Shown: positions 41,884 to 59,546 of the stretch, one piece after another
How the letters are laid out: each line of letters opens with the position of its first letter
Numbering within the stretch: the stretch's first letter is position 1
Program-made: the position numbers and the translations under genes
NCBI GenBank assembly: GCA_021833625.1
Contig: JAKBEU010000002.1
Coordinates: 62,001 to 126,000, forward strand
Direction: 5' to 3'
Source: a bacterium
GTDB lineage: Bacteria > Patescibacteriota > Microgenomatia > UBA1406 > GWC2-37-13
Length of the DNA stretch: 64,000 nt
The notes under the pieces: model-generated
What the model was told of the DNA's origin: nothing
Database searches by the model: none
What the model saw: only the letters and a program-made list of their open reading frames with translations

Positions 41884-43587
41884 ATGAAAGACCTTTTATT
41901 GAGAAGTCATGGAGGTGCTCTCGTGAATCTGTATGAAACAATAAAAGAGAATGAAAAACTGTTTAAGAACACTCTTCCGTATTTACCAAGACTCGTTCTT
42001 AATGAACGGCAGATATGCGACCTGGAGCTGATAATGAACGGAGGATTTTCCCCATTAAGTGGTTTTCTCAACGAAGACGAATATGTTTCGGTGATTACAA
42101 AAATGAGACTCCCGAATGGAATCTTGTGGCCAATTCCCATTGTACTGGATGTACACGGCAAGGATGTATATTCTGTTGGAGGTGATGTTCTTCTTTGTGA
42201 TACATTTGATAATCCGTTGGCCGTGATACGGGTTGAGTCGATATACAAATCCGATAAGGAGAAGGAGGCAAAAGCCGTATACGGTACAAAGAGTCAAGAT
42301 CATTTTGGAGTGAACTATTTGTACGGGAGAGTGAATGAGTATTGTCTTGGCGGAAAAATTTATGCGTTGCACAAAATAGAACATCTCGACTATCCCGATT
42401 TAAGATTGACTCCCGCGGAACTCCAGGCGTGGTTTTTTAAAAAAAACTGGAAACACATTATCGGATTCCAGACACGAAACCCTATTCACAAAGCACATTT
42501 TTCATTGATAAAAGATGCGGCAAAAAACGTTGGGGGAAAAGTTCTTATTCACCCATCTGTTGGGTTAACGAAAGACGGAGACATTGACGCGGTGACCCGT
42601 ATTAAATGTTATCAGATAATACAGGATAAATATGCGAAAGATTTCAGCAAGCTTAACTTATTACCTTTGGCGATGAGGATGGCAGGTCCGAAAGAAGCGC
42701 TCCTTCATGCGATAATCAGAAAAAATTACGGATGTACACATTTTATTATCGGAAGAAATCACGCGGACCCAGGAAACAACCGTCAGGGAATTCCTTTTTA
42801 TAAGCCGTATGAAGCTCAAGAGTTGGCTTGTCAGTTTGCAAAAGAAATAGGGATAGAGATTCTTTGTTATAAGGAGATGGTGTATGAAGAAAAAAGTAAA
42901 AAGTATGTCAGCGTCGACAATATTAAAAAAACCGATCGGGTAAAAAAAATATCCGGAACAGATTTTAGAAAAATGCTGTTTATGAACGAAAAAATCCCCG
43001 GTTGGTTTTCTTTTCCCGAAATAATAAAGTTTTTGAGAATAAATGCAAAATATAACAGGGGATTAACGGTCTTTTTTACCGGATTACCTTCATCGGGAAA
43101 GTCAACTCTATCAAGAAGTTTGGGGGCATATATTATGAATACGTATCATCGAAAAGTGACTCTTCTTGACGGGGACATTGTAAGAAAAAATTTGAGTAAG
43201 GGACTAGGCTTTAGCAAAGAAGACAGAAAAACAAACATAAGAAGAATAGGATTTGTGGCGAGTGAAATAACAAAGCACGGAGGGATTGCGCTTTGTGCAG
43301 CTATTTCTCCTTATAAAGATGCCCGAAAAGAAGTAAGGGACATTGTCTCCGTAAACGGAGTATATGTTGAAGTATATGTATCTACTCCCCTTGAACTATG
43401 TAAAGAACGGGACATAAAGGGACTGTATAAAAAAATGAAAGTCGGTCTTATAAAAGGAGTTACGGGAGTTGACGACGCATATGAGAGACCCATTAATCCA
43501 GAAATAACCGTTAATACGTCAGGAAAAACCATTAAACAATCGCTGCGTTTCATTACGGCGTATCTTGAAAAAAGAAAGCTCCTGTAA
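41884..43587 (+). CDS. sat-cysC: Bifunctional ATP sulfurylase / APS kinase
   Basis: A protein of 567 residues with two enzymes in one chain. Residues 1 to about 385 are a Sat-type ATP sulfurylase: SHGGALVNL, GFSPLSGFLNEDEY, the ATP-binding QTRNPIHKAH and the GRNHADPG motif (normally GRDHAGPG). Residues about 390-567 are an APS kinase: P-loop GLPSSGKST, LLDGDIVR, the switch with AISPYKDAR and a closing segment with PINPEI. Together they turn sulfate and two ATP into PAPS. The order Sat-CysC matches known fusions. A palindrome next to a -10 box suggests regulation. It is convergent with a CysD-like gene, one base apart. Confidence 0.95.
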   Translation: MKDLLLRSHGGALVNLYETIKENEKLFKNTLPYLPRLVLNERQICDLELIMNGGFSPLSGFLNEDEYVSVITKMRLPNGILWPIPIVLDVHGKDVYSVGGDVLLCDTFDNPLAVIRVESIYKSDKEKEAKAVYGTKSQDHFGVNYLYGRVNEYCLGGKIYALHKIEHLDYPDLRLTPAELQAWFFKKNWKHIIGFQTRNPIHKAHFSLIKDAAKNVGGKVLIHPSVGLTKDGDIDAVTRIKCYQIIQDKYAKDFSKLNLLPLAMRMAGPKEALLHAIIRKNYGCTHFIIGRNHADPGNNRQGIPFYKPYEAQELACQFAKEIGIEILCYKEMVYEEKSKKYVSVDNIKKTDRVKKISGTDFRKMLFMNEKIPGWFSFPEIIKFLRINAKYNRGLTVFFTGLPSSGKSTLSRSLGAYIMNTYHRKVTLLDGDIVRKNLSKGLGFSKEDRKTNIRRIGFVASEITKHGGIALCAAISPYKDARKEVRDIVSVNGVYVEVYVSTPLELCKERDIKGLYKKMKVGLIKGVTGVDDAYERPINPEITVNTSGKTIKQSLRFITAYLEKRKLL

Positions 43588-43588
43588 G

Positions 43589-44272
43589 CTACCAGTAACC
43601 CATTTGTCTGAGTTTTTCCATCGACTCTTCTTTTTCTCTATCGCGTCCTGAACGTTCACCCTCCTTAGATTTTTTTGTAAACGGTTTTTCACCGATAGAA
43701 CGATACCCTTTATCGTAGAGTGATAAATAGGGGACATTAAACAACCTGATATAATCCCACACATCCTTTTCAGTAAAGTGAAGGAGAGGATGAATGCGTA
43801 TATGGTCTGGTCTTTGGGAAAAATATGTTTCATTTGCGCGGGCGGGGTGCTCATCCCGTCGTATTCCCAACATATATCCTTTTAAGCGATAGATCTTAAG
43901 TGCTTTATTTAATGAATTAATTTTCATTATTCTTGACAGTTCTTTTTTGCGTTTTTTATCCCGTGTCAAGTGGTACTCTGCAAGTTCTTTTTCGTTATGT
44001 TTTACTATTTTAAGATCAAGTCCCCATAACTTTTGGAGATGGCTGATAAAACGGTATACTTCCTTAAATTCGAGAGTAGTGTCGTTGAACATAACCTGAA
44101 AAGGAATTGCTCCGTCATACATCGTGAGAATAATGTGCATAAGGGTAGTTGTATCTTTCCCCCCTTTCCAGGCGATTGCGATATTTCCTGCTCCATACCT
44201 GGCAATTGCTCTTTTGACAATTTTTTTTGTCCGTGCTATTTTTTGGTGTATACTTTCCGTACGTTGCATCAT
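43589..44272 (-). CDS. CysD-like PP-loop protein (PAPS reductase/CysD superfamily)
   Basis: A protein of 227 residues from the ATG at 44272. AWKGGKDTTTL is a PP-loop (SGGKDS-like) ATP pyrophosphatase motif. The rest follows CysD, the catalytic part of the two-subunit ATP sulfurylase: GIRRDEHPARAN, RIHPLLHFTEKDVWDYI, GYRSIGEKPFT and the closing ERSGRDREKEES block. The C-terminal ECGIH motif of PAPS reductase (CysH) is absent, so reduction of PAPS is not supported. The GTPase partner CysN is not in the window. It faces sat-cysC tail to tail and is divergent from the hydrolase gene, with 3 bases between the starts. Confidence 0.75.
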   Translation of the reverse strand: MMQRTESIHQKIARTKKIVKRAIARYGAGNIAIAWKGGKDTTTLMHIILTMYDGAIPFQVMFNDTTLEFKEVYRFISHLQKLWGLDLKIVKHNEKELAEYHLTRDKKRKKELSRIMKINSLNKALKIYRLKGYMLGIRRDEHPARANETYFSQRPDHIRIHPLLHFTEKDVWDYIRLFNVPYLSLYDKGYRSIGEKPFTKKSKEGERSGRDREKEESMEKLRQMGYW

Positions 44273-44275
44273 TTT

Positions 44276-46405
44276 ATGTGTATTTTTTGTCAAACACCCG
44301 CAACACATGGGGCTGAAAAGATAATTTTTGCCGGTTATATTGACCCCGGTTCCGGATATATTTTCTCCTCCATTGTACCATTTATCCTTGGCATGATCGG
44401 AACAGTGGCTTTGAGCGTAGGGATATTTTTGAAAAGGACTTTCCTATCGTTGTATAAAAAAAAGATATTCTTTTTTTGTTTATTATTCTTTTTTCTTTCT
44501 GCGATAATAGTATCCATATATTATATGGGGCATAAGACTTCAAAAAAAATACCCGATGAGAAGATTGTTGTATTGGCCGTTGACGCATTGGATCCACATG
44601 TAATAGAACAGGGAATAGAAAACAACGTATTGCCCAATTTTAGGAAACTCAAAGACGAGGGTTATTTTTCACAACTTGGAACGTCCACTCCTCCTCAGTC
44701 TCCCGTTGCATGGGCAAACTTCATAGTGGGGGGGACGACAAGTAAACATGGAGTATATGATTTTATCGGGAGAGATCCCAAAGACTATCGTGTCAGTCTG
44801 AATATGTCGGACAGTGTTCCTCATAAGTGGCTGACAAAACCTTACTGGGAAGTGGCAAGTGAAAACGGGCTTTCAACAACCACACTTTTTCTTCCCGATA
44901 CTTATCCGGTTCCGAAAAAAATAGTCGGGAAAATGATCTCAGGAATGGGAACGCCGGATGTCCTTGGAACAGAGGGAACTTTTACGTTGTTTACTACGAA
45001 GGACTATCCATCAAACCCAAGTTTCAGGGGAATGCTCATACGCTTAAAACGTGAAGTGATAAATGAAACGGTTATCAAAGGGCCAAAATTCAGGTACTTT
45101 TCGGAAGTAAAAAATATGACCATTCCGCTTGAGGTAAAGGTGGTAAATGATAATGAGGTGCGGCTTAATTTTCAAAATAATGTATTTACTCTTAAAAAAA
45201 ATGAATTCTCTGACTGGAAAAAATTCGTATTTGACGTAGATATATTTACTCACATAAACGGGGTGGGGAAGTTTTATTTAAAAAGCGTAACTCCGGAACT
45301 TGAGCTGTATCTGAGTCCTATAAACTTTGATCCAGAGAATCCGGTTTATCCCATTTCTTATCCCAAAGATTATGCAAAAGATACGGCAAAAAAAATGGGA
45401 TTATTTCATACACAGGGATTGCCTATTGACTCATGGGCACTTGAAGAAGGAGTACTTGATGACAAAGCTTTTTTGAGTCAGGCGAGTGAGATCCTAAACG
45501 AGCGGGAAAAAATATATCTTTCTGAACTGGCAAACATGAAGAAGGGCGTCCTTATTGCTTATTTCGGTTCTGTTGATACCGTTCAACATATGTTTTGGAG
45601 TGATGAAGAGGGTGGAAAGTATTCTCCTGTCGTCATGGATTATTACGAGAAAATTGACCGGATAATAGGGGAGACAATTGAAAAAATAGACAAAAAAACA
45701 ACACTCGTCGTCCTATCAGATCACGGGTTCGGCTCATTTAATTTTGAGATTAATTTGAACAATTGGCTGAACGATAATAAATATCAGAGTATAGCGGACA
45801 ACAAAAAAGCATCCCTGGGGACACTTGATCATATTGATTGGAGTAAAACGAGGGCATATTCTATCGGATATAACGGTATTTATTTAAATCTTAAAGGAAG
45901 AGAGGGAAAGGGGATTGTGGACAAAAAAGATTACGACTTATTACTTAAGGAATTATCAAAAAAATTGTTGGAGTTTAAAAATCCGTACAATAATGCTCCC
46001 ATCATTAAAAAAGTGTATACAAAAAAAGATTTGGGCATTCCGGACTCTGATGTAAATTCTCCTGATCTAGTCATAGGATTTTACAAAGGAGCACGTTCTT
46101 CGTGGGATAATGCGGTTGGGCAATTGAGCGCTGCTGCCATATCACCCCGGAAAGGAAAGTGGAAAGGGGATCATCTGTTTGATCCGTCAGAAGTCCCCGG
46201 AGTCCTTTTAATGAATAAAAAGTCGGAAGTACAAAATCCAAAAATCAGCGACGTGATGCCGTCAATTTTGGGAAAATTCAATATTACCATGAACGGCGGA
46301 GACGATAAAAATATTTTTAACACCTTCAATCAACAGAAAGAATCAGAACACGATCAGAAAGACAATACAAATCCCGACACTTTAATGAGTCTTCCCTACA
46401 GATGA
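44276..46405 (+). CDS. Membrane-anchored alkaline-phosphatase-superfamily hydrolase
   Basis: A protein of 709 residues from the ATG at 44276; a TATACT box lies 21 nt before it. The N-terminal AGYIDPGSGYIF and two hydrophobic segments (about residues 30-55 and 65-85) form the membrane part. From about residue 98 comes the alkaline-phosphatase-like fold: VLAVDALDPH (metal Asp), TPPQSPVAWANF with a Ser in the place of the nucleophile, LSDHGFGSF (metal Asp-His) and KGDHLFDP. The group includes type I phosphodiesterases, nucleotide pyrophosphatases and some sulfatases. Next to PAPS-making genes it may handle phosphodiester, PAP or sulfate esters at the cell surface; this is inference. Confidence 0.82.
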   Translation: MCIFCQTPATHGAEKIIFAGYIDPGSGYIFSSIVPFILGMIGTVALSVGIFLKRTFLSLYKKKIFFFCLLFFFLSAIIVSIYYMGHKTSKKIPDEKIVVLAVDALDPHVIEQGIENNVLPNFRKLKDEGYFSQLGTSTPPQSPVAWANFIVGGTTSKHGVYDFIGRDPKDYRVSLNMSDSVPHKWLTKPYWEVASENGLSTTTLFLPDTYPVPKKIVGKMISGMGTPDVLGTEGTFTLFTTKDYPSNPSFRGMLIRLKREVINETVIKGPKFRYFSEVKNMTIPLEVKVVNDNEVRLNFQNNVFTLKKNEFSDWKKFVFDVDIFTHINGVGKFYLKSVTPELELYLSPINFDPENPVYPISYPKDYAKDTAKKMGLFHTQGLPIDSWALEEGVLDDKAFLSQASEILNEREKIYLSELANMKKGVLIAYFGSVDTVQHMFWSDEEGGKYSPVVMDYYEKIDRIIGETIEKIDKKTTLVVLSDHGFGSFNFEINLNNWLNDNKYQSIADNKKASLGTLDHIDWSKTRAYSIGYNGIYLNLKGREGKGIVDKKDYDLLLKELSKKLLEFKNPYNNAPIIKKVYTKKDLGIPDSDVNSPDLVIGFYKGARSSWDNAVGQLSAAAISPRKGKWKGDHLFDPSEVPGVLLMNKKSEVQNPKISDVMPSILGKFNITMNGGDDKNIFNTFNQQKESEHDQKDNTNPDTLMSLPYR

Positions 46406-46416
46406 GGCGAGTTTTT

Positions 46417-46983
46417 TTATTTAAGCGGAACGGCGATTTCCCTCAACGGTTTTCTGAGGGACACTTCTTCGTTTTCCGCTTCACTTGTCGGTTCGCCGAC
46501 CGCTATCATGCACTCTATAGAGAAATCGTCGCCCAGTTTTAGGTATTCTTTTGCTTTTGCATAGTCAAATCCGCTCATGCCATGGACAACTAAATTTCTT
46601 TTTGTTCCCTCAATCGCAAAGGCTTCCCATGCGGCGCCCGTATCAAAAGAATGGGTCTTGTCCAGTTTTCCGTTATGCTCAAAACTTATTTTCGAAACCA
46701 ATAGAATGAGAAACGAAGCATTTTTACACCAGGACTGATTGGAGGGAGTCAGCAGATTGAACAGTTCGACAAAACTTTTGCTGTCTTTCTTGGAATAATA
46801 AAACTGTTCCGGCTGGGCATTAAAAGCAGAAGGAGCATACTTGGCTGCTTCAAAAAGTGGAGTCAGTACGTCTTCCGGAAGCGAGGCTCCGCTCATACTT
46901 CGAGGAGACCAGCGATAGATGATTGAATCCAGAACTCCTTCCGGGTTTTTTCTTACATTTTTTGCCGTATCTTGAATGGTCAT
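46417..46983 (-). CDS. Nitroreductase family protein
   Basis: A protein of 188 residues from the ATG at 46983; the frame is open further but the upstream residues are unlike the family and overlap the divergent gene. IIYRWSPRSMSG is the FMN-binding entry motif, AKYAPSAFNAQPEQFYY the second, and GAAWEAFAIEGTKRNLVVHGMSGF the central helix with the cofactor contacts. Nitroreductases are FMN-dependent NAD(P)H oxidoreductases acting on nitro compounds, quinones or flavins. Length is slightly short compared with 200-220. It is divergent from the dioxygenase gene. Substrate unknown. Confidence 0.88.
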   Translation of the reverse strand: MTIQDTAKNVRKNPEGVLDSIIYRWSPRSMSGASLPEDVLTPLFEAAKYAPSAFNAQPEQFYYSKKDSKSFVELFNLLTPSNQSWCKNASFLILLVSKISFEHNGKLDKTHSFDTGAAWEAFAIEGTKRNLVVHGMSGFDYAKAKEYLKLGDDFSIECMIAVGEPTSEAENEEVSLRKPLREIAVPLK

Positions 46984-47050
46984 ATTATTTTTAGTTGGTA
47001 AATGGGATAATTGTACTCGTATCAGGAAGTTAATAACAGAGAGAAACAAT

Positions 47051-47845
47051 ATGAATAAAAACGGGATGCGCACGCCCTTATTGTTTGTCGGACACGGAAA
47101 CCCCATGAACGCCATTTCCGACAATATTTATTCCCGCATGTGGGAAAAGATAGGAAAAAGCTTAGCCCCTCCAAAGGCAATCGTATGTTTCAGCGCCCAC
47201 TGGCTAACCTCTGGGAGCTTCGTAACCTGTAAGTCTAATCCTGAGATAATCTATGACTTCTACGGATTTCCGGAAGAATTATATAACGTGAAATATCCGG
47301 TGGCGGGAGATGAGCATCTCGCAAAAACGATTTCGCAAACGGAAAAAACAATTCGCTTGGATACAAAATGGGGGATAGACCACGGGACGTGGTCCGTATT
47401 AAAAAGGATGTTCCCGAAGGCCAATATTCCTGTGCTTCAGATAAGCGTTGACTATTCGGCGCCTCCCGAAATTCAATTTGAACTTATAAAAAAATTAAAA
47501 GGCATGCGCGAAGAGGGAATCTTATTTATCGGAAGCGGAAACATCGTTCATAATCTGCCCCTTGCCGCAATGAATTCCAAGCCGTATGATTGGGCGATTG
47601 AGTTTGAAGAAATATGTAGAAAATTGATTGAAAAAAAAGACTTTGCTTCACTCATTCACTACGAACAATTGGGAGCGTCTTCCCGACTGGCTGTTCCCAC
47701 GGATGATCATTACCGCCCCATGCTCAATACTCTTGCCCTTGCCTATGAAGATGAGGAGCCGTCTTTTTTCAATAGAGGGATTGATCTTGGAAGTGTAAGC
47801 ATGTTGTCTTTCATTATGCAAACCCCGGGAAATAATCCGTTTTGA
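47051..47845 (+). CDS. LigB-type extradiol dioxygenase (YgiD-like)
   Basis: A protein of 264 residues from the ATG at 47051, which has a GAGAG ribosome-site-like sequence before it. Residues matching the class III extradiol dioxygenase (YgiD, DODA) group are visible: FVGHGNPMNAI, CFSAHWLTSGSF, DFYGFPEELY, GIDHGTWSVLKRMFP, IGSGNIVHNL and TDDHYRPML. The His residues in HGN, AHW and HGTW are the expected zinc or iron ligands. YgiD opens the ring of DOPA-type catechols. Its 3' end overlaps the end of the convergent flavin operon gene by 32 bases. Physiological substrate here is unknown. Confidence 0.9.
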   Translation: MNKNGMRTPLLFVGHGNPMNAISDNIYSRMWEKIGKSLAPPKAIVCFSAHWLTSGSFVTCKSNPEIIYDFYGFPEELYNVKYPVAGDEHLAKTISQTEKTIRLDTKWGIDHGTWSVLKRMFPKANIPVLQISVDYSAPPEIQFELIKKLKGMREEGILFIGSGNIVHNLPLAAMNSKPYDWAIEFEEICRKLIEKKDFASLIHYEQLGASSRLAVPTDDHYRPMLNTLALAYEDEEPSFFNRGIDLGSVSMLSFIMQTPGNNPF

Positions 47846-49331
47846 TTTTATTTGTCAGAATTCCCATTTCTTGCAAAGTTGTTGCATTTGCAGTGACCAT
47901 TGCGTGCGGTCCGGACAAATAGTAGGTTCTCTCATTATAATCGGGCACTTCCTCCTGGATCATGTGGGCATCTATTCTCCCCACTTTTCCTTTCCACTCC
48001 TTCGGTACGGTATTTTTATCAGTAAGCGTGTAAACGGTTTTTATTCCCAAGTCCTTTTGTGCCTCGTCAAAGATTTCCCGATATGCGATTTCACTTGCCA
48101 TTTTATTTGCATAAAAAACGGTTATCGGACGCGGTTGGTTTGTATCGATAAGGTATTTAATCATGCTGCGAAATGGAGTAATTCCGATTCCTCCTGCGAT
48201 AAGAACACATTTTTCCTGCGGATTCTTGGGAAGAGTGAATTCTCCGGATAGCTGTGCTCCGACAAGGGGAGTGTTGGCGTCAAGGGAGAAGAGAGTTTTT
48301 TTAAAACTGCTTCCCTGGGGATAAAATTTAATACCCAAATGGAGAGTGTCTTCTGTGGGCGAGGAGGCAATAGTAAAATATCTTCTGTTTCCTCTCGCGT
48401 CAGGATTTTTATGAGGAAGAGTCCACTCCATATATTGTCCGGGAACGAATGACAATTTTTTTCCAAGAAAAAATTGATAATCAAAAATATCTGTTCCGTA
48501 CGGTATTTTTTCCTTCAAACGAAGCAATAATTTATACTTCGGACTGACTATATAAGAAAATATATTTCCGATTGAAAGGGCAATTTCGGGGGTGCCATAC
48601 ACTCCCGCTATCCGAAGCTGAGGGGCGGACAAAAAACCGACAAGTACTCCATACAGTATCTGCTTTTTTTTTGTCGGAGGAGTTGTCAATGGTTCGGTAA
48701 GCATGACAAAGCTGAGGAAAAGCAACGAAGAATTTAAAACAATATTCGTTACCGTTTTAAACACGTCTCCTCCCGATAGAATGGCAAAAAGAACAGACGT
48801 TGCAAGGGAGGCAATGATAAAACTGTAAAGAAGATCTGCCCTTTTTATTTTTCTTACGATAAGAATTCCGCCAACGAGTACGAACGGGGCGAGTGAAGTC
48901 GTGCCGACCCACCAACTTGCAGCTCCATTAATTCCTATCGCGGTAAGTACAACCGCAATTGCCACGGGATTGAAAACATGCTTTTTATGTATGGCAAGAA
49001 TATATTTTGTAGACATGGCAAGAACTCCGGCCCAAAAGAGGAGCCACACGTCCTGAAATGAGGCAATGGGAGTTATGATGAGAGCAAGGATAAGTGCGGA
49101 TATATATGCCGATTCATTATTGGTAGGGGCATGAAACGCAGCGGAAAAAAACTCATTAGTCGCAAGACAAACAACGGTTAAAAATCCGACTGAGACAATA
49201 AGAGAAAACGGACTAAAGGGAAGAACATGCAGTGCACTCAAAACAACCGAGGCGATAAGAAGTCCAATGAGATAATACAGCATCAACCGATACATAGTGA
49301 TTGAGTCGAGAAATCTGTCGATAAAGCTCAT
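47814..49331 (-). CDS. NqrB/RnfD-like membrane domain fused to a ferredoxin:NAD(P)H reductase domain
   Basis: A protein of 505 residues in two parts. Residues 1 to about 265 hold about eight or nine helices resembling the NqrB/RnfD family, with MLTEPLTTPPTKKKQ in the place of the family's DP/EP loop. Residues about 275-505 are a ferredoxin-NADP reductase-like module: RYFTIASSP (FAD), GGIGITPFRSM (NAD(P)H) and YYLSGPHAM near the end. It would take electrons from NAD(P)H in the cytoplasm and pass them through the membrane. It is the third gene of the operon apbE - FMN-binding protein - this gene, overlapping its neighbour by four bases. Confidence 0.88.
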   Translation of the reverse strand: MSFIDRFLDSITMYRLMLYYLIGLLIASVVLSALHVLPFSPFSLIVSVGFLTVVCLATNEFFSAAFHAPTNNESAYISALILALIITPIASFQDVWLLFWAGVLAMSTKYILAIHKKHVFNPVAIAVVLTAIGINGAASWWVGTTSLAPFVLVGGILIVRKIKRADLLYSFIIASLATSVLFAILSGGDVFKTVTNIVLNSSLLFLSFVMLTEPLTTPPTKKKQILYGVLVGFLSAPQLRIAGVYGTPEIALSIGNIFSYIVSPKYKLLLRLKEKIPYGTDIFDYQFFLGKKLSFVPGQYMEWTLPHKNPDARGNRRYFTIASSPTEDTLHLGIKFYPQGSSFKKTLFSLDANTPLVGAQLSGEFTLPKNPQEKCVLIAGGIGITPFRSMIKYLIDTNQPRPITVFYANKMASEIAYREIFDEAQKDLGIKTVYTLTDKNTVPKEWKGKVGRIDAHMIQEEVPDYNERTYYLSGPHAMVTANATTLQEMGILTNKIKTDYFPGFA

Positions 49332-49834
49332 AGTGAATTTTTAGCTTTAATTAACGTCGATTGTAACGACTGAACAAATGCTTGGCTTGAATCGGTTGCG
49401 CCGGAAACGACGTCAACCTGTGCACTTTGCGCTTGGATTGCCTCTGATTTCAAAATGGGCATGGCATCCTGGTTTATTCGTATCGAATGAGTTCTGTCAT
49501 TTGGATATTGGAGAAACTGAATATCCGCAATTTTCCCTCCCTGTATCACCGTTTGTACTTGAATATTTCCATACAATGCATCAATGACGTCTCCCGTATA
49601 CGATCCGTCTTTAAATGCTGCGCTTGGAGCAGTATTTGGAACGGATGTCAGACTTTGGGAAGGAGTAAGAGGAGGGGGAGAACTTTGTGAGGGGACTGAA
49701 CTTGGAGAGGTGGGAACAGGCGAAGAAGGACTTCCGGTTTGATTTATTATCGGCAGTTGGCCCAGAAATCTGTAATAAAGTGAAAAGAGGACAAATGAAC
49801 CGATAACAGCACCTGACAATAGAAAACGCTTCAT
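49328..49834 (-). CDS. Exported FMN-binding protein (flavinylation target)
   Basis: A protein of 168 residues. An N-terminal membrane anchor (about residues 4-24) leads into a Ser/Pro-rich linker of about 35 residues and an FMN_bind domain from about residue 75: FKDGSYTGDVIDALYG, GGKIADIQFLQYP and near the end VVSGATDSSQAF. The Thr in SGAT is the residue to which ApbE joins FMN through phosphate in RnfG/NqrC-type proteins. It overlaps apbE and the NqrB/RnfD-like gene by four bases each. It should be held at the outer face and take electrons from the membrane partner. Confidence 0.92.
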   Translation of the reverse strand: MKRFLLSGAVIGSFVLFSLYYRFLGQLPIINQTGSPSSPVPTSPSSVPSQSSPPPLTPSQSLTSVPNTAPSAAFKDGSYTGDVIDALYGNIQVQTVIQGGKIADIQFLQYPNDRTHSIRINQDAMPILKSEAIQAQSAQVDVVSGATDSSQAFVQSLQSTLIKAKNSL

Positions 49835-50610
49835 AGACTTGATTGAATAAATGAATCAATAATTCCGTTCGTTTGAGTGTATTTTGCAAAACCGCTTGTA
49901 TATGTTGCGGTTCCATTTTTATCGATAAGATATCCTTCAAGCCCGGCCATCTTTTCTATAAAATATATCCCGTTTTTTCCCATCGCAAACGCAGCGGTTG
50001 CAAACCGGTCTGCTTCGTACACATTCGGCCCTATTACTGTCATACTAATGGTTTCGTCAAGCAATTGGTTGGGGGAAAGCGGATTGTAGATATGATTTCC
50101 CCGAATATATGTTCCTGAAGTTGCAACGGCACAATCGGTAAGATTAAGTATTTTTATATTCTCAAAACGGTTGAAGGGGTTCCGGATTCCGACGGTCCAT
50201 TTTTTCCGTTGAAAGGTTAATCCTCTTACTTCAATATCTCCCCCCGCATCAATAATATAGTTGTCACATCCTCTCTTTTGTAACATATCAGACGCCTTTT
50301 TTATAGCCCATCCTTTGACAAGACCGAGGGGGTCAATAAAGTCACCTCTTTTATGATTGAAGTATCCAGACGACTCCTTTTTTGTGATTTCACAAAGGGA
50401 GATAACGTCATTCATTTCGTGACTCCATTCGTTTCTTTTTACTTCGCCGCGATTTATCCGACTGATCTCACTGTTCTCTTTAAAAATATTAAATAATGAG
50501 TCTACATGTAAGAAGTAATCAAATATACTGTCGATTACCGATTTATCTGTAGCAACACCCGCGATATTGATTGTTATGGGCATGTCCCACATGAGTCTTG
50601 TTTCTTTCAT
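49831..50610 (-). CDS. apbE: FAD:protein FMN transferase ApbE
   Basis: A protein of 259 residues from the ATG at 50610; a CATAAT box ends 9 nt before it, while an ATG at 50619 touches the box. ApbE features: the N-terminal domain, GDFIDPLGLVKGWAIKKASD, YIIDAGGDIEVRG, VGIRNPF and the Mg-binding EADRFATAAFAMG near the end. It joins FMN to Thr of target proteins, using FAD. No signal peptide is obvious, so it may act in the cytoplasm or be anchored otherwise. The target gene follows with a four-base overlap, so it probably modifies that protein. Confidence 0.94.
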   Translation of the reverse strand: MKETRLMWDMPITINIAGVATDKSVIDSIFDYFLHVDSLFNIFKENSEISRINRGEVKRNEWSHEMNDVISLCEITKKESSGYFNHKRGDFIDPLGLVKGWAIKKASDMLQKRGCDNYIIDAGGDIEVRGLTFQRKKWTVGIRNPFNRFENIKILNLTDCAVATSGTYIRGNHIYNPLSPNQLLDETISMTVIGPNVYEADRFATAAFAMGKNGIYFIEKMAGLEGYLIDKNGTATYTSGFAKYTQTNGIIDSFIQSSL

Positions 50611-50719
50611 ACTGCCCATATTATGATTACTAGCTGAAAATAAGCTTAATAAATAGGGGAAGAAAAGGCGCCTTGTCTGACTTCAGGAATCTTTCAGAAT
50701 ACTATTATATCCTTCTTCT

Positions 50720-51476: not shown

Positions 51477-53882
51477 ATGAACAAAATAAAATCTTTTCCT
51501 ACAGTTCTTATCATTCTTGGGGCAACCGGCGATTTGATGCACAAGAAAATCGTTCCCGCACTTTTTAATCTCTACGAAAAAAATAAAGCACCGAAGATGT
51601 TTCATATCGTCGGTTTTTCGAGAAGGGATTTTGATGATGTGCGATTTCGTGCCTCATTGAAAGAAATCCTCAAGGAGCATTTTCAAGGAAAACAGATAGA
51701 TGAGGAAAAAATAAAGTCGTTCATCAATCTGTGGTCATACAATAAGGGGACATTTGAAGAGAGAGGTGATTATGAAAAACTGGCAACCCAGCTTGGTTAT
51801 TTTGACAATGAGTGGCATACCTGTTCAAACAAACTGTTTTATATTGCTGCTCCGCCACAGTATTATGAACCGATTCTTAAAAATCTGAAGCTCTCAAATC
51901 TGACGCTTCCATGTTCAAGTGAGGAAGGGTTCACGAGAGTGTTGATTGAAAAACCGTTCGGAAAAGACACGGACACCGCAACAAAACTGGAGACACTCTT
52001 AAGCGGTCTTTTTAAAGAAGAACAGATTTTCAGGATTGATCATTATTTGGCAAAAGAGATGTTACAGAATATTCTCAGCTTTCGTTTTTCAAATGCATTG
52101 TTTGAAAGTGCGTGGAGTAATAAATATATTGAAAAGGTGCAGATACGGGTATGGGAGACCTTGGGTGTTGAGAAGCGTGGGAGTTTTTATGACGGCCTTG
52201 GCACACTGCGTGATGTCGGGCAAAATCATCTACTACAGATGCTTGCTCTCATTGCAATGGACAATCCCGGCAACTTCAATACGGAGCCAATTCGCACTCA
52301 GCGGGCAAAAATTTTGGAGACACTGAAAATTCCGGGGAGTGACGAAATAAAAAAATATTCCTACCGGTCGCAGTACCTGGGGTATGACAAAATAAAAGGC
52401 GTTAATCCGCAATCAAAGACAGAGACTTACTTCAAGATCCGTGCGTTCTTAAACACTCCCCGTTGGGAGGGTGTTCCTTTCATTTTGGAAAGCGGGAAGC
52501 GGTTGGAAGGGGCACGGAAGGAAATAATCGTGACATTTAAACATCCTGATTTTTGTCTCTGTCCAGTGGGGTCGGATCACTTAGGAAAAAATAAAATTGT
52601 TTTCCAGTTTGAACCTGAGGAGGGAGTGTTTATCGATCTTCTCTCAAAAAAACCGGGATTGCTTTTTGAAACGAAGGGAGCAAAATTCCAATATTTCTAT
52701 CGTGAAAACAGAAATAAGGTGCAGTATGTTGAAGAGTATGAAAAACTCCTTCTTGATGCCATCGAAGGAGACCAAACACTCTTTGTCAGAAGTGACGAAG
52801 TGGTAGGCATGTGGAAGTTTATTGACCCCATTATTAATGCATGGAAAAATGATGAGGTGCCTTTACATTCATACAAACCTGACACGGAAGAGGCGATGAC
52901 TGATTCGAAATATATTGATGAAAGCGGCAATTCCGTGACGAAAAAGGCGTCGATAAAAAAAGAAATAGGAATAATAGGCTTGGGGAAAATGGGCGGGGGG
53001 GTTGCAGAGAGACTTATCGATAAGTCGTGGAATGTGGTTGGATTTAATCGAAGCCCGGAAACAACCAAAAAACTGGAAGCAAACGGATTAAGGGGTGTTT
53101 TTTCCCTTAAGGAATTGGTTGCAAAAGTATCAAAACCAAGAATAATTCTGTTATCGCTTCCTGCAGGAGAACAAATAGACAAAACATTATTTTCTGAAAA
53201 CGGACTTGCCGATTTGCTTGAAAAAAACGACATCATTATTGACGGGGGCAACTCGTACTATAAGGATTCCATAAGACGTGCAAAGATGCTTGAAAAACGG
53301 GGAATTCGATTTATGGATGTTGGTATTTCCGGCGGCCCGACCGGCGCACGAAATGGAGCATCATTAATGATTGGTGGAATGAAAAAAGATTTTACTGAAT
53401 ACGAGCAACTTTTTTTTGATATGTCTCTCCCCGACGGCTATCAATTTTTTGAAGGATACGGAGCGGGACATTTTGTCAAAATGGTACATAACGGAATTGA
53501 ATACGGCATGATGCAGGCAATTGCGGAAGGGTTTGCAGTTCTCAAAAAATCAGATTATCGTTTAGATTTGTCGCGGGTAAGTGATGTATATAACCATGGG
53601 AGCGTTATTGAATCAAAATTGATAGGGTGGTTAAGACAAGCATTTGCCGTATATGGAGAAGACCTGTCTTCTATATCTGGAGTGGTAAGTCATACCGGGG
53701 AGGGAGAGTGGACGATTAAGAGTGCCAAAGAATTAAAAGTAAAAACAAAAATTATTGAAGGTGCGCTGCAGTTTCGCATTGATTCGGAAAAAAATCCCGA
53801 CTATGTGGGAAAGATTCTGTCAGTACTTCGCAATCAATTTGGAGGGCACACGGTGTCATCCGGTACTGGCCGTCCGACTTAG
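51477..53882 (+). CDS. zwf-gnd: Fused glucose-6-phosphate dehydrogenase and 6-phosphogluconate dehydrogenase
   Basis: One uninterrupted frame of 801 residues. Residues 1 to about 475 are a G6PD: LGATGDLMHKKIVPAL (coenzyme), EKPFGKD, the substrate motif RIDHYLAKE and the C-terminal DEVVGMWKFIDPI. A charged linker of about 15-20 residues follows. Residues about 495-801 are a short-type 6PGD (about 300 residues): IIGLGKMGGGV (coenzyme), GGNSYYKD, ISGGPTGARNGASLMIGG and the catalytic FVKMVHNGIEYG. Both parts look complete. The chain would give two NAD(P)H and ribulose 5-phosphate from glucose 6-phosphate, except the lactonase step, which is not included. It overlaps the end of the convergent MFS gene by 27 bases. 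Confidence 0.95.
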   Translation: MNKIKSFPTVLIILGATGDLMHKKIVPALFNLYEKNKAPKMFHIVGFSRRDFDDVRFRASLKEILKEHFQGKQIDEEKIKSFINLWSYNKGTFEERGDYEKLATQLGYFDNEWHTCSNKLFYIAAPPQYYEPILKNLKLSNLTLPCSSEEGFTRVLIEKPFGKDTDTATKLETLLSGLFKEEQIFRIDHYLAKEMLQNILSFRFSNALFESAWSNKYIEKVQIRVWETLGVEKRGSFYDGLGTLRDVGQNHLLQMLALIAMDNPGNFNTEPIRTQRAKILETLKIPGSDEIKKYSYRSQYLGYDKIKGVNPQSKTETYFKIRAFLNTPRWEGVPFILESGKRLEGARKEIIVTFKHPDFCLCPVGSDHLGKNKIVFQFEPEEGVFIDLLSKKPGLLFETKGAKFQYFYRENRNKVQYVEEYEKLLLDAIEGDQTLFVRSDEVVGMWKFIDPIINAWKNDEVPLHSYKPDTEEAMTDSKYIDESGNSVTKKASIKKEIGIIGLGKMGGGVAERLIDKSWNVVGFNRSPETTKKLEANGLRGVFSLKELVAKVSKPRIILLSLPAGEQIDKTLFSENGLADLLEKNDIIIDGGNSYYKDSIRRAKMLEKRGIRFMDVGISGGPTGARNGASLMIGGMKKDFTEYEQLFFDMSLPDGYQFFEGYGAGHFVKMVHNGIEYGMMQAIAEGFAVLKKSDYRLDLSRVSDVYNHGSVIESKLIGWLRQAFAVYGEDLSSISGVVSHTGEGEWTIKSAKELKVKTKIIEGALQFRIDSEKNPDYVGKILSVLRNQFGGHTVSSGTGRPT

Positions 53883-56791: not shown

Positions 56792-57820
56792 ATGACGACA
56801 AAAAACAGTGATATTCTTGAACAGATAAAAACAGCCGCCTTGGTTGGGAGAGGGGGAGCGGGATTTCCGGTGTATATGAAATGGAAACGAATGAAGGAGG
56901 TTGAAAATAAAAAGAAATATGTTGTCTGCAACGCAAGTGAAGGGGAGCCCGATGTAAAAAAAGATCACTATCTTCTTGACCATTATCCCGAGACGGTCGT
57001 AAAAGGAATGGTCATTGCTCTTGATTTTTTGGGACAAAAAGAAGCATATTTCAACATAAACGCCCATTACTTTGCTGAGTTTGAAGAAAAATTGAAAAAG
57101 GCAATTGAGCCGTATGAAAAAAAGGGATATATTTTCCATTTTTTTATTGAAAAGCCAAGCTATATAGGAGGGGATTCGGGAGCAATTCTTAATGCCATTG
57201 AAGGAAAACGGACCCAGCCCCGTGCAAAACATCCCTCTCCTTCCATCTTGGGAATTTTTGGAAATCCGACGCTTGTTCATAACGTTGAGACTTTGTACAA
57301 TATCGCGCGGGTTGCTGAGGGTTCATTTTCTAATACGCGGCTCTATACTATCGGCGGAAAGGTAAAAAACCCGGGAGTATTTGAACTTCCCGATACGTTT
57401 ACCGTTGAGGAAGTTCTGCGCAAAACAAACAACTATTCGTCATTTCCTTTTTTTGCTCAAGTAGGTGGCGGGGCGAGCGGGGTTGTAATAAATGAAGAAC
57501 AAATGAAGACCGACACGGCTTTTGGGTGCGCTTCAATACAGGTGTATGACAGTGAAACAACGACTCGTGAGCTTCTTTTACAATGGTTTAAATTTTATGA
57601 GAGGGAAAGCTGCGGGAAATGCACTCCCTGCCGGGAGGGAACGTACCAGTTATATGAAATGATAAAAAAAACGGAAACAATTCCGTGGAAAAATATTCTT
57701 GCAATCGTAGACGTATTGAAGACGACGACATTTTGTGCTCTCGGAAGTTCGCTTCCCATACCGGTCGAATCGTATATTAAAAATATTTTGAAAGTAGATC
57801 GAGACACGTTAATAAATTAA
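56792..57820 (+). CDS. NuoF/HydB-like flavoprotein subunit
   Basis: A protein of 342 residues. The FMN-binding GRGGAGFPVYMKW at the N-terminus and VCNASEGEPDVKKD match NuoF/HydB. An SLBB-like region follows, then the C-terminal [4Fe-4S] site ESCGKCTPCREG with a distal Cys in FCALG. Two points are odd: the nucleotide-binding loop, normally YxCGEETAL, reads YIGGDSGAIL, so the usual glutamates are changed; and the thioredoxin-like N-terminal domain of HydB is absent. No NuoE/HydC partner is in the window. It sits 13 bases before the hydrogenase gene, so the two should form a complex. Confidence 0.9.
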   Translation: MTTKNSDILEQIKTAALVGRGGAGFPVYMKWKRMKEVENKKKYVVCNASEGEPDVKKDHYLLDHYPETVVKGMVIALDFLGQKEAYFNINAHYFAEFEEKLKKAIEPYEKKGYIFHFFIEKPSYIGGDSGAILNAIEGKRTQPRAKHPSPSILGIFGNPTLVHNVETLYNIARVAEGSFSNTRLYTIGGKVKNPGVFELPDTFTVEEVLRKTNNYSSFPFFAQVGGGASGVVINEEQMKTDTAFGCASIQVYDSETTTRELLLQWFKFYERESCGKCTPCREGTYQLYEMIKKTETIPWKNILAIVDVLKTTTFCALGSSLPIPVESYIKNILKVDRDTLIN

Positions 57821-57833
57821 GTAAAGAACCTCT

Positions 57834-59546
57834 ATGCAAAAAAGCGTCACGATATTCATAAACGACACGCCCCTTGTCTGCCTAGAGAATGAAAGTGTGC
57901 TTAAAGTTGCCATAGATAATAAAATAGAAATCCCCCATTTTTGCTATCACGAAGATTTAGATATTGAAGCAAACTGCAGAACGTGTCTTGTCCAAAATGC
58001 TGAAACGAAAAAAATCACCACCTCCTGTGATCTCAGGGCAAAAGAGGGGCTCAAAGTAGTGACAAAGTCCCCCATTCTTGAAAAATTAAGAAAGAAAAAC
58101 ATGGAACTGCTTCTTCTCAACCACACAAAGGGATGTCCGAAGTGCGCTAAAGGATATTTCTGTAAAGTAAAAGAAAAAATAGAAGAATTCAAGTTAGATA
58201 CTCTCCAGTATAAAAAAATCAAAACGGATTATCCCGTTCATAAGCTGGGAACAGCAGCAGAACTTGATCCGAATATTTGCATTTCCTGCAATAACTGTGT
58301 AAAAATTTGTGAAAAAATAGGAATACATTTTCTTCACCTTGAAGGGCAGGGTGCGCATTCTCACATAGAACATTCGCAGGATCCGCTCGTTGACTGTGTG
58401 TATTGCGGTCAGTGTACGGCGCATTGTCCGGTGGGAGCTGCGCGGGAACAAAGTCATTTGCAAAAAGTGGAAGAAGTCCTTAAAGATAAAACAAAAACCG
58501 TTATTGTCCAGATGGCACCGTCGGTGCGCGCAAGCATAGGAGAGGAATTCGGAGGTAAGCCCGGTCAAGATGTGACTGGACAGATGTACACCGCGCTTCG
58601 ATTGCTTGGATTCGACAAAATATTCGATGTCAATATGGGAGCTGACATAACGACGACAGTCGAGGCTGAAGAGCTGATTGACAGAATCAAGAATAAAGGA
58701 GTGCTCCCGATGTTTACGTCCTGCTGTCCGGCGTGGGTGAAATTTGTTGAGTTTTATCATCCCGAATTTATCCCCAACCTTACAACCTCCCGTTCTCCCC
58801 AAATTCATTCCGGTACAGCATATAAAACATGGTGGGCCGAAAAAGAAAAAATTGATCCGAAAAAAATAGTCATTGTTTCGATAATGCCCTGCACTTCAAA
58901 AAAATATGAAGCAAGTCATGAAAAATTCAAGGTTAACGGCATGGACCCTGTCGACTATGTCCTTACAACCCGTGAAACTGCAGTATTGCTCAAAAAAAAT
59001 AATATCGATCCTCTGAAGCTTTCCCCAAGCAAAGTAGATCATTTTGGAGAATATTCGGGTGCTGCGGCAATTTATGGGGCTTCGGGAGGGGTTATGGAGT
59101 CGGCACTCCGCACCGCCGTAAAGCTGGCAACAGGAGACGATCTTAAAAAACTGGAATTTGAGGGAGTCCGTGGTATGAAGGGAATAAAAAAAACAACGGT
59201 TAAAATAGGACTGCTCAATCTTAAAATTGCAGTCGTTTCTACTCCAAAAAATGCCCGCGTCATTTTAGGGGAACTCAAGAAAGATCCGAAAGCATATGAT
59301 TATGTCGAGTTTATGGCATGTCCTGGAGGGTGCATCGGAGGAGGAGGACAGCCTATTCCAACGACTGACAGGATTGTAAAGGAGCGCATCGCAGGACTTT
59401 ACTCCATAGATACACACATGAAAATGAGACAGGCCCACGAGAACCCGGTCGTTAAAGATTTTTTTGAATATGTAAAAAAGCTTCCTCATGAAAAACAGCA
59501 TGAACTGCTTCACACGTCCTATTCAAAAAGGAATAAATTCGAATAA
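57834..59546 (+). CDS. hydA: [FeFe] hydrogenase catalytic subunit
   Basis: A protein of 570 residues. N-terminal [2Fe-2S] ferredoxin domain (HFCYHEDLDIEANCRTC), then the His/Cys cluster motif H-x3-C-x2-C-x5-C (HTKGCPKCAKGYFC), two [4Fe-4S] motifs (CISCNNCVKIC, CVYCGQCTAHC), then the H-domain. All three H-cluster signatures are complete: TSCCPAW (about residues 295-301), MPCTSKKYE and FMACPGGCIGGGGQP. The proton-transfer Cys in TSCC is kept and the small-subunit-like C-terminal helix is present. This is a group A-type enzyme making or using H2. The maturation genes hydE, hydF and hydG are not in the window. Confidence 0.97.
   Translation: MQKSVTIFINDTPLVCLENESVLKVAIDNKIEIPHFCYHEDLDIEANCRTCLVQNAETKKITTSCDLRAKEGLKVVTKSPILEKLRKKNMELLLLNHTKGCPKCAKGYFCKVKEKIEEFKLDTLQYKKIKTDYPVHKLGTAAELDPNICISCNNCVKICEKIGIHFLHLEGQGAHSHIEHSQDPLVDCVYCGQCTAHCPVGAAREQSHLQKVEEVLKDKTKTVIVQMAPSVRASIGEEFGGKPGQDVTGQMYTALRLLGFDKIFDVNMGADITTTVEAEELIDRIKNKGVLPMFTSCCPAWVKFVEFYHPEFIPNLTTSRSPQIHSGTAYKTWWAEKEKIDPKKIVIVSIMPCTSKKYEASHEKFKVNGMDPVDYVLTTRETAVLLKKNNIDPLKLSPSKVDHFGEYSGAAAIYGASGGVMESALRTAVKLATGDDLKKLEFEGVRGMKGIKKTTVKIGLLNLKIAVVSTPKNARVILGELKKDPKAYDYVEFMACPGGCIGGGGQPIPTTDRIVKERIAGLYSIDTHMKMRQAHENPVVKDFFEYVKKLPHEKQHELLHTSYSKRNKFE

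Follow-up and report, generated by a model that had tools for sequence, protein, structure and literature searches.

A compact flavin operon in a CPR genome, probably a one-way electron relay to the cell exterior, with an outer carrier that may be exchanged in relatives

Rnf and Nqr complexes move electrons along a semicircular path and pump ions, and in Listeria the surface flavoprotein PplA is fed by Ndh2, quinone and EetA/EetB, with FmnB an exported lipoprotein. A respiratory chain is missing from most CPR cells, and an electron outlet is therefore central to their reductant balance. The locus analysed here is closest to the NQR/RNF-like system described in Meheust 2021, with 127 clusters, mainly from Actinobacteria and CPR, in a survey that chose its clusters by the presence of ApbE, FMN-binding, DUF2271 or DUF3570 genes (PMC8238504). 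A 2024 preprint modelled the fusion/carrier pair of this system and suggested that the covalent flavin of the carrier samples the membrane protein's flavin site (PMC10979944).

The 64,000-nucleotide stretch of CPR DNA analysed here, referred to as the window, carries an operon of three genes only, all on the minus strand: apbE, encoding an FAD:protein FMN transferase (49831..50619, 262 aa), the gene for an anchored FMN_bind carrier protein (49328..49834, 168 aa), and a gene in which an NqrB/RnfD-like membrane domain is fused to an NAD(P)H reductase (47814..49331, 505 aa). The operon is an ordinary member of the NQR/RNF-like system, and this minimal CPR version, put forward as new in the original prediction, is already described in PMC8238504. 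The ORF positions bear out the four-base overlaps described at each joint (apbE/FMN_bind and FMN_bind/fusion, both ATGA). The predicted span, 47814-50610, has the correct start, but its end misses the first ATG (50619) by 9 bases; the conserved ApbE start is probably an inner methionine (MKETR...) downstream of that ATG. The identities proposed for the parts (ApbE, an SGAT-bearing FMN_bind protein, and the fusion) are backed by Pfam, solved-structure and AlphaFold comparisons, and none of the NCBIfam models exceeded its cut-off for any of the three proteins. Placement in a CPR host also held, the window's genome sharing its phylum with a Doudnabacteria genome.

The fusion matched Pfam NQR2_RnfD_RnfE (PF03116; E=2e-11, 44.2 bits against a cut-off of 27.7) and, in its C-terminal half, NAD_binding_1 (PF00175; E=6e-19, above the curated cut-off), and its AlphaFold model, built with the window's protein and 18 relatives as input, reached a mean pLDDT of 87.5. 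Residues 1-262 (48546..49331, minus strand) make up a ten-helix membrane half whose profile matched NqrB and RnfD in the PDB and whose model aligned with RnfD (8rbq_D) at Z 24.2 and rmsd 3.7 over 253 residues, a match that came up in a second-look aligner, the first 50 Foldseek matches being to reductase domains. The kinship with NqrB/RnfD on which the original prediction depended is thus found by Pfam, by PDB profile and by structure. In the profile alignment of the membrane half, NqrB 136-211 and 272-393 are covered, with only 13 query positions between, and the covalent-flavin threonine of NqrB, residue 236 in Vibrio cholerae numbering, falls within the missing stretch 211-272; judging by this alignment, the threonine is absent from the membrane half, which lacks the covalent-flavin segment and probably holds a non-covalent flavin. 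This agrees with PMC10979944, where the covalent-flavin site is described as not conserved in NQR/RNF-like proteins. Residues 266-505 (47817..48536, minus strand) form an FNR-type reductase half with RRYFT (FAD) and GGIGITP (NAD(P)H) motifs, which matched cytochrome b5 reductase and NqrF among solved structures, and reductases in the structural comparison with Z up to 27. FAD_binding_6 matched the fusion below threshold, a point against the relay described below.

The carrier matched Pfam FMN_bind (PF04205; E=9e-9, above the curated cut-off), and its profile matched the SaFMN3 flavin domain among solved structures (8p2a, E=1e-19). The modelled domain superposes on 8p2a at 40% identity, with a TM score of 0.84 when scaled by target length, within an AlphaFold model of low overall confidence (63.5). 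Residues 3-24 (49763..49828, minus strand), a helix in the model with a hydrophobic window of 2.15, are a probable membrane anchor and, by this simple hydrophobicity measure, the export feature of the protein; the MKR start suggests that the N-terminus lies inside. A Ser/Pro-rich tether had been predicted for the flavin domain, and the composition of residues 25-74 (49613..49762, minus strand) agrees, with 13 Ser, 11 Pro and 5 Thr among the 44 residues at 31-74; this segment is disordered in the model (pLDDT under 50 at residues 26-70). The SGAT flavinylation motif (residues 144-147; 49394..49405, minus strand) is conserved in relatives, and motif and fold together predict covalent FMN on Thr147.

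ApbE matched Pfam PF02424 (E=4e-35, above the curated cut-off) and FMN transferases in the PDB (E=4e-15). It is leaderless: a hydrophobic N-terminal signal was found neither in the window's protein nor in 40 others (41/41 full-type ApbEs beside a fusion), most of which begin a few residues ahead of a conserved M-x-MP motif. Unlike these enzymes, the carriers of the same operons have N-terminal anchors or signal peptides; 40 of 48 exceeded a simple N-terminal hydrophobicity threshold, and among the remaining 8 some starts are truncated, over-extended or signal-peptide-like. The ApbEs characterised so far are mostly exported lipoproteins, cytosolic ones being known for targets in the cytosol, and a seven-residue tag is enough for flavinylation (PMC12052999). 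Since ApbE is leaderless though its target is exported, it seems probable that FMN is loaded onto the carrier in the cytosol, before or during export, which poses the question of how a protein carrying covalent flavin gets across the membrane. A cytosolic ApbE could also mean that the FMN domain itself is cytosolic, with the anchor inverted, so that the enzyme meets its target normally and the operon acts as an inner-face diaphorase, as the uniform lack of export signals in these ApbEs would allow. We regard this as very unlikely, given the MKK/MKR ahead of the anchor helix, the cleavable-looking signal peptides of alphaproteobacterial carriers (L019), a low-complexity Ser/Pro tether typical of exported proteins, and the concentration of carrier-type-linked divergence in predicted outer loops.

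We consider it quite probable that the operon is a one-way relay from NAD(P)H through FAD and a membrane flavin to covalent FMN, by which electrons would be exported; the two-protein relay of the original prediction is judged right, as is its likely electron order, which we infer from the assembled parts. Cytosolic NAD(P)H would reduce FAD in the C-terminal reductase domain of the fusion, from which electrons would pass to a flavin, probably non-covalent, in the membrane half, and then to the FMN held covalently on Thr147 of the tethered carrier. The carrier may dock at outer loop 9-10, with the Ser/Pro tether swinging it to reduce an acceptor outside. With two proteins and one modifying enzyme, the operon is a compact test case. 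Our estimate covers the relay and its direction, with the acceptor considered separately. Partner outer proteins were sought beside the operon, as had been suggested, and no conserved secreted partner was found in the neighbourhoods of flavin-linked loci; because no partner gene is conserved there, the likeliest acceptor is an oxidant, either diffusible or mineral (Fe(III), quinone or O2).

The window's genome (1.10 Mb, 99.6% complete) encodes one ApbE and one FMN_bind protein. Heme-copper oxidase (COX1) and bd oxidase had no match in this genome, each sought with one family model, and the operon is the only flavinylated outlet found in a genome without detectable heme-copper or bd oxidase. 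FAD synthetase, also sought with a single family model, gave weak sub-cut-off matches only, which counts against the relay. The same parts could instead serve assimilatory metal reduction, the tethered FMN reducing Fe(III) or Cu(II) for uptake and not for the disposal of reductant. A VIT1 iron transporter accompanies six of the published NQR/RNF-like clusters (PMC8238504), and P-type metal ATPases are encoded near 8 loci of the fusion family; the window's genome has a VIT1 homologue as well, but on another contig and unlinked to the operon, which itself has no adjoining metal transporter, and the one family model used for FeoB_C went unmatched in this genome. On balance we think metal uptake rather unlikely to be the purpose of the operon, and favour export of electrons.

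Next to the operon and divergent from it, one gene encodes an 801-aa protein that joins glucose-6-phosphate dehydrogenase with a short 6-phosphogluconate dehydrogenase (51477-53882, plus strand), a possible source of NAD(P)H. Further on, at 56792-59546 (plus strand), a NuoF-like protein is followed by an [FeFe]-hydrogenase near the NADH-dependent group A6 (below the cut-off of the model), a pair that is likely a second electron sink. The window also encodes a bifunctional sulfate adenylyltransferase/APS kinase and a PAPS reductase-domain protein (41884-44308), here in a CPR genome, and a convergent 4,5-DOPA-extradiol-dioxygenase-type protein (46976-47845, plus strand) whose gene shares 32 bases with the fusion gene's end. 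The nitroreductase and DODA dioxygenase neighbours were rejected as operon partners, as they lie beside no other fusion among the first 23 loci.

The fusion was present in 3 of 56 other nearest-relative genomes and in 66 of 380 genomes sampled across the phylum (the window's own included), and relatives outside the CPR include three alphaproteobacterial records, among them Solirhodobacter olei Pet-1. The search for the same gene order in relatives, which had been proposed, found the three genes together in more than 40 loci, so their grouping is not due to chance, but it did not find the window's order elsewhere: among loci with readable context, FMN_bind-ApbE-fusion was commonest (41 loci) and ApbE-FMN_bind-fusion occurred once, in the window. 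The patchy presence among nearest relatives would fit a decaying, functionless remnant of Rnf or Nqr; that idea has next to no probability in our estimation, as the ORFs are intact, motifs are conserved at 40-60% identity, the fusion is present in 66 of the 380 phylum genomes, and the operon structure recurs. At 11 of 60 flavin-linked loci (L005, L009, L018, L021, L082, L088, L100, L110, L114, L125, L146), response-regulator and kinase-type genes lie within ~4.5 kb of the flavin operon, hinting that its expression is signal-controlled, and at L081 and L099 two FMN_bind genes beside a single fusion suggest duplicated carriers.

The fusion also occurs without flavin genes. Among 24 fusion-carrying genomes, 14 had both FMN_bind and ApbE and 10 had neither, and 16 further carriers with no flavin gene beside the fusion had no FMN_bind anywhere in the genome, bringing to 26 the tested fusion carriers without any FMN_bind protein. 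In a tree of 85 fusions, one clade of 13 (support 100/99) contains no flavin-linked member, and a cupredoxin is encoded near the fusion in 8 of these 13; losses of flavin genes are also scattered outside the clade, and some may be assembly gaps. Of the 25 loci lacking flavin genes, 11 had a cupredoxin-like neighbour (that of L008 being a weak match), against 0 of the 60 that have them; the Fisher p=2e-7 makes this difference look stronger than it is, as the loci share ancestry and the test was made after the pattern had been noticed. The cupredoxin gene is directly upstream of the fusion on the same strand at L011, L012, L014 and L122, and likewise at L118, which lies outside the clade of 13; it is convergent with the fusion at L130, L131 and L133, and at greater distance at L015 and L115. 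These cupredoxins, found in genomes without a flavin carrier, are of two types, one with Cys, His and Met present (L115, L118, L122, L131) and an HPxH/YHxHL type without the Cys, for which type-1 copper is ruled out.

From gene position we would guess that the cupredoxin takes electrons from the fusion, and that in relatives the outside carrier may be exchanged for it. We tentatively propose, as an idea with a serious though less than even claim, that the fusion serves CPR generally as a one-way transmembrane exit module for NAD(P)H electrons, with a swappable carrier, either a cytosol-loaded FMN protein (most lineages) or an anchored cupredoxin (a distinct clade). The flavin-free cupredoxin form would have been missed by the published survey because its clusters were selected by flavinylation-linked genes (PMC8238504). 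A role for the cupredoxin-linked fusion as the missing donor to the copper nitrite reductase NirK in CPR was considered (PMC12931201 mentions that a plastocyanin receives electrons from an unidentified protein) and set aside, as none of the 7 genomes over the NirK cut-off or the 1 just below it carries a fusion, a non-overlap that is weak evidence, with ~1.4 co-occurrences expected by chance among the eight genomes. Some weak NirK matches were the cupredoxins beside the fusion.

The carrier exchange seen among relatives makes it possible to ask, as in a natural experiment, where on the membrane protein the carrier docks. On a topology based on the positive-inside pattern and the model, loop 9-10, predicted to be outer (residues 235-247; 48591..48629, minus strand), was the most divergent between the cupredoxin clade and flavin-linked fusions (mean 0.62, compared with ~0.24 for the helices and 0.23 for the reductase half), while two flavin-linked clades gave 0.31 and 0.22 as controls and random splits 0.13. 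Divergence of this loop was also high in a mostly flavin-linked sister clade (0.50) and a distant flavin-linked set (0.46), so the change may partly track distance; outer loop 7-8 (0.54) was variable in every comparison. Flavin-linked fusions have a PQxHIGxxYxTPE-like loop, with Pro248 in 46/46, where the cupredoxin clade has Leu or Phe. Because it changes wholesale in the cupredoxin clade, loop 9-10 is likely the carrier-docking site. The window's loop carries Arg at a position that is His in most flavin-linked fusions, and this counts against the relay.

Neither the leaderless ApbE nor the flavin-free cupredoxin form was found in the open literature searched, and the novelty of both is provisional. 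In other respects the operon resembles the NQR/RNF-like system as given in PMC8238504 and PMC10979944: the window has the NqrB/RnfD-like N-terminus, PF00175 in the C-terminal part of the same protein, adjacent FMN_bind and ApbE genes and a lost covalent threonine in the membrane half, and shares with that system a CPR host and a proposed one-way flow; its order ApbE-FMN_bind-fusion is unusual. Rnf and Na+-NQR have homologous membrane (NqrB/RnfD), carrier (NqrC/RnfG) and reductase (NqrF) domains, but form a separate six-subunit complex (NqrC/RnfG, NqrD/E or RnfA/E), against only three genes in the operon. The operon differs further in lacking a return path and any equivalent of the NqrB covalent-flavin segment, and in having its reductase fused, and the genome has a single FMN_bind gene, that of the carrier. 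The six-subunit comparison drawn in the original prediction also mixes two jobs, since only the outward half is present here and flow is predicted to be one-way. With the flavin-based extracellular electron transfer of Listeria (PplA, FmnB), the operon shares, as its exit point, an FMN protein tethered at the surface and loaded by an ApbE-type enzyme, and the PplA model gave a weak match in the window (E=4e-4, below the NCBIfam cut-off); it differs from Listeria in its direct NqrB-reductase fusion and its leaderless ApbE.
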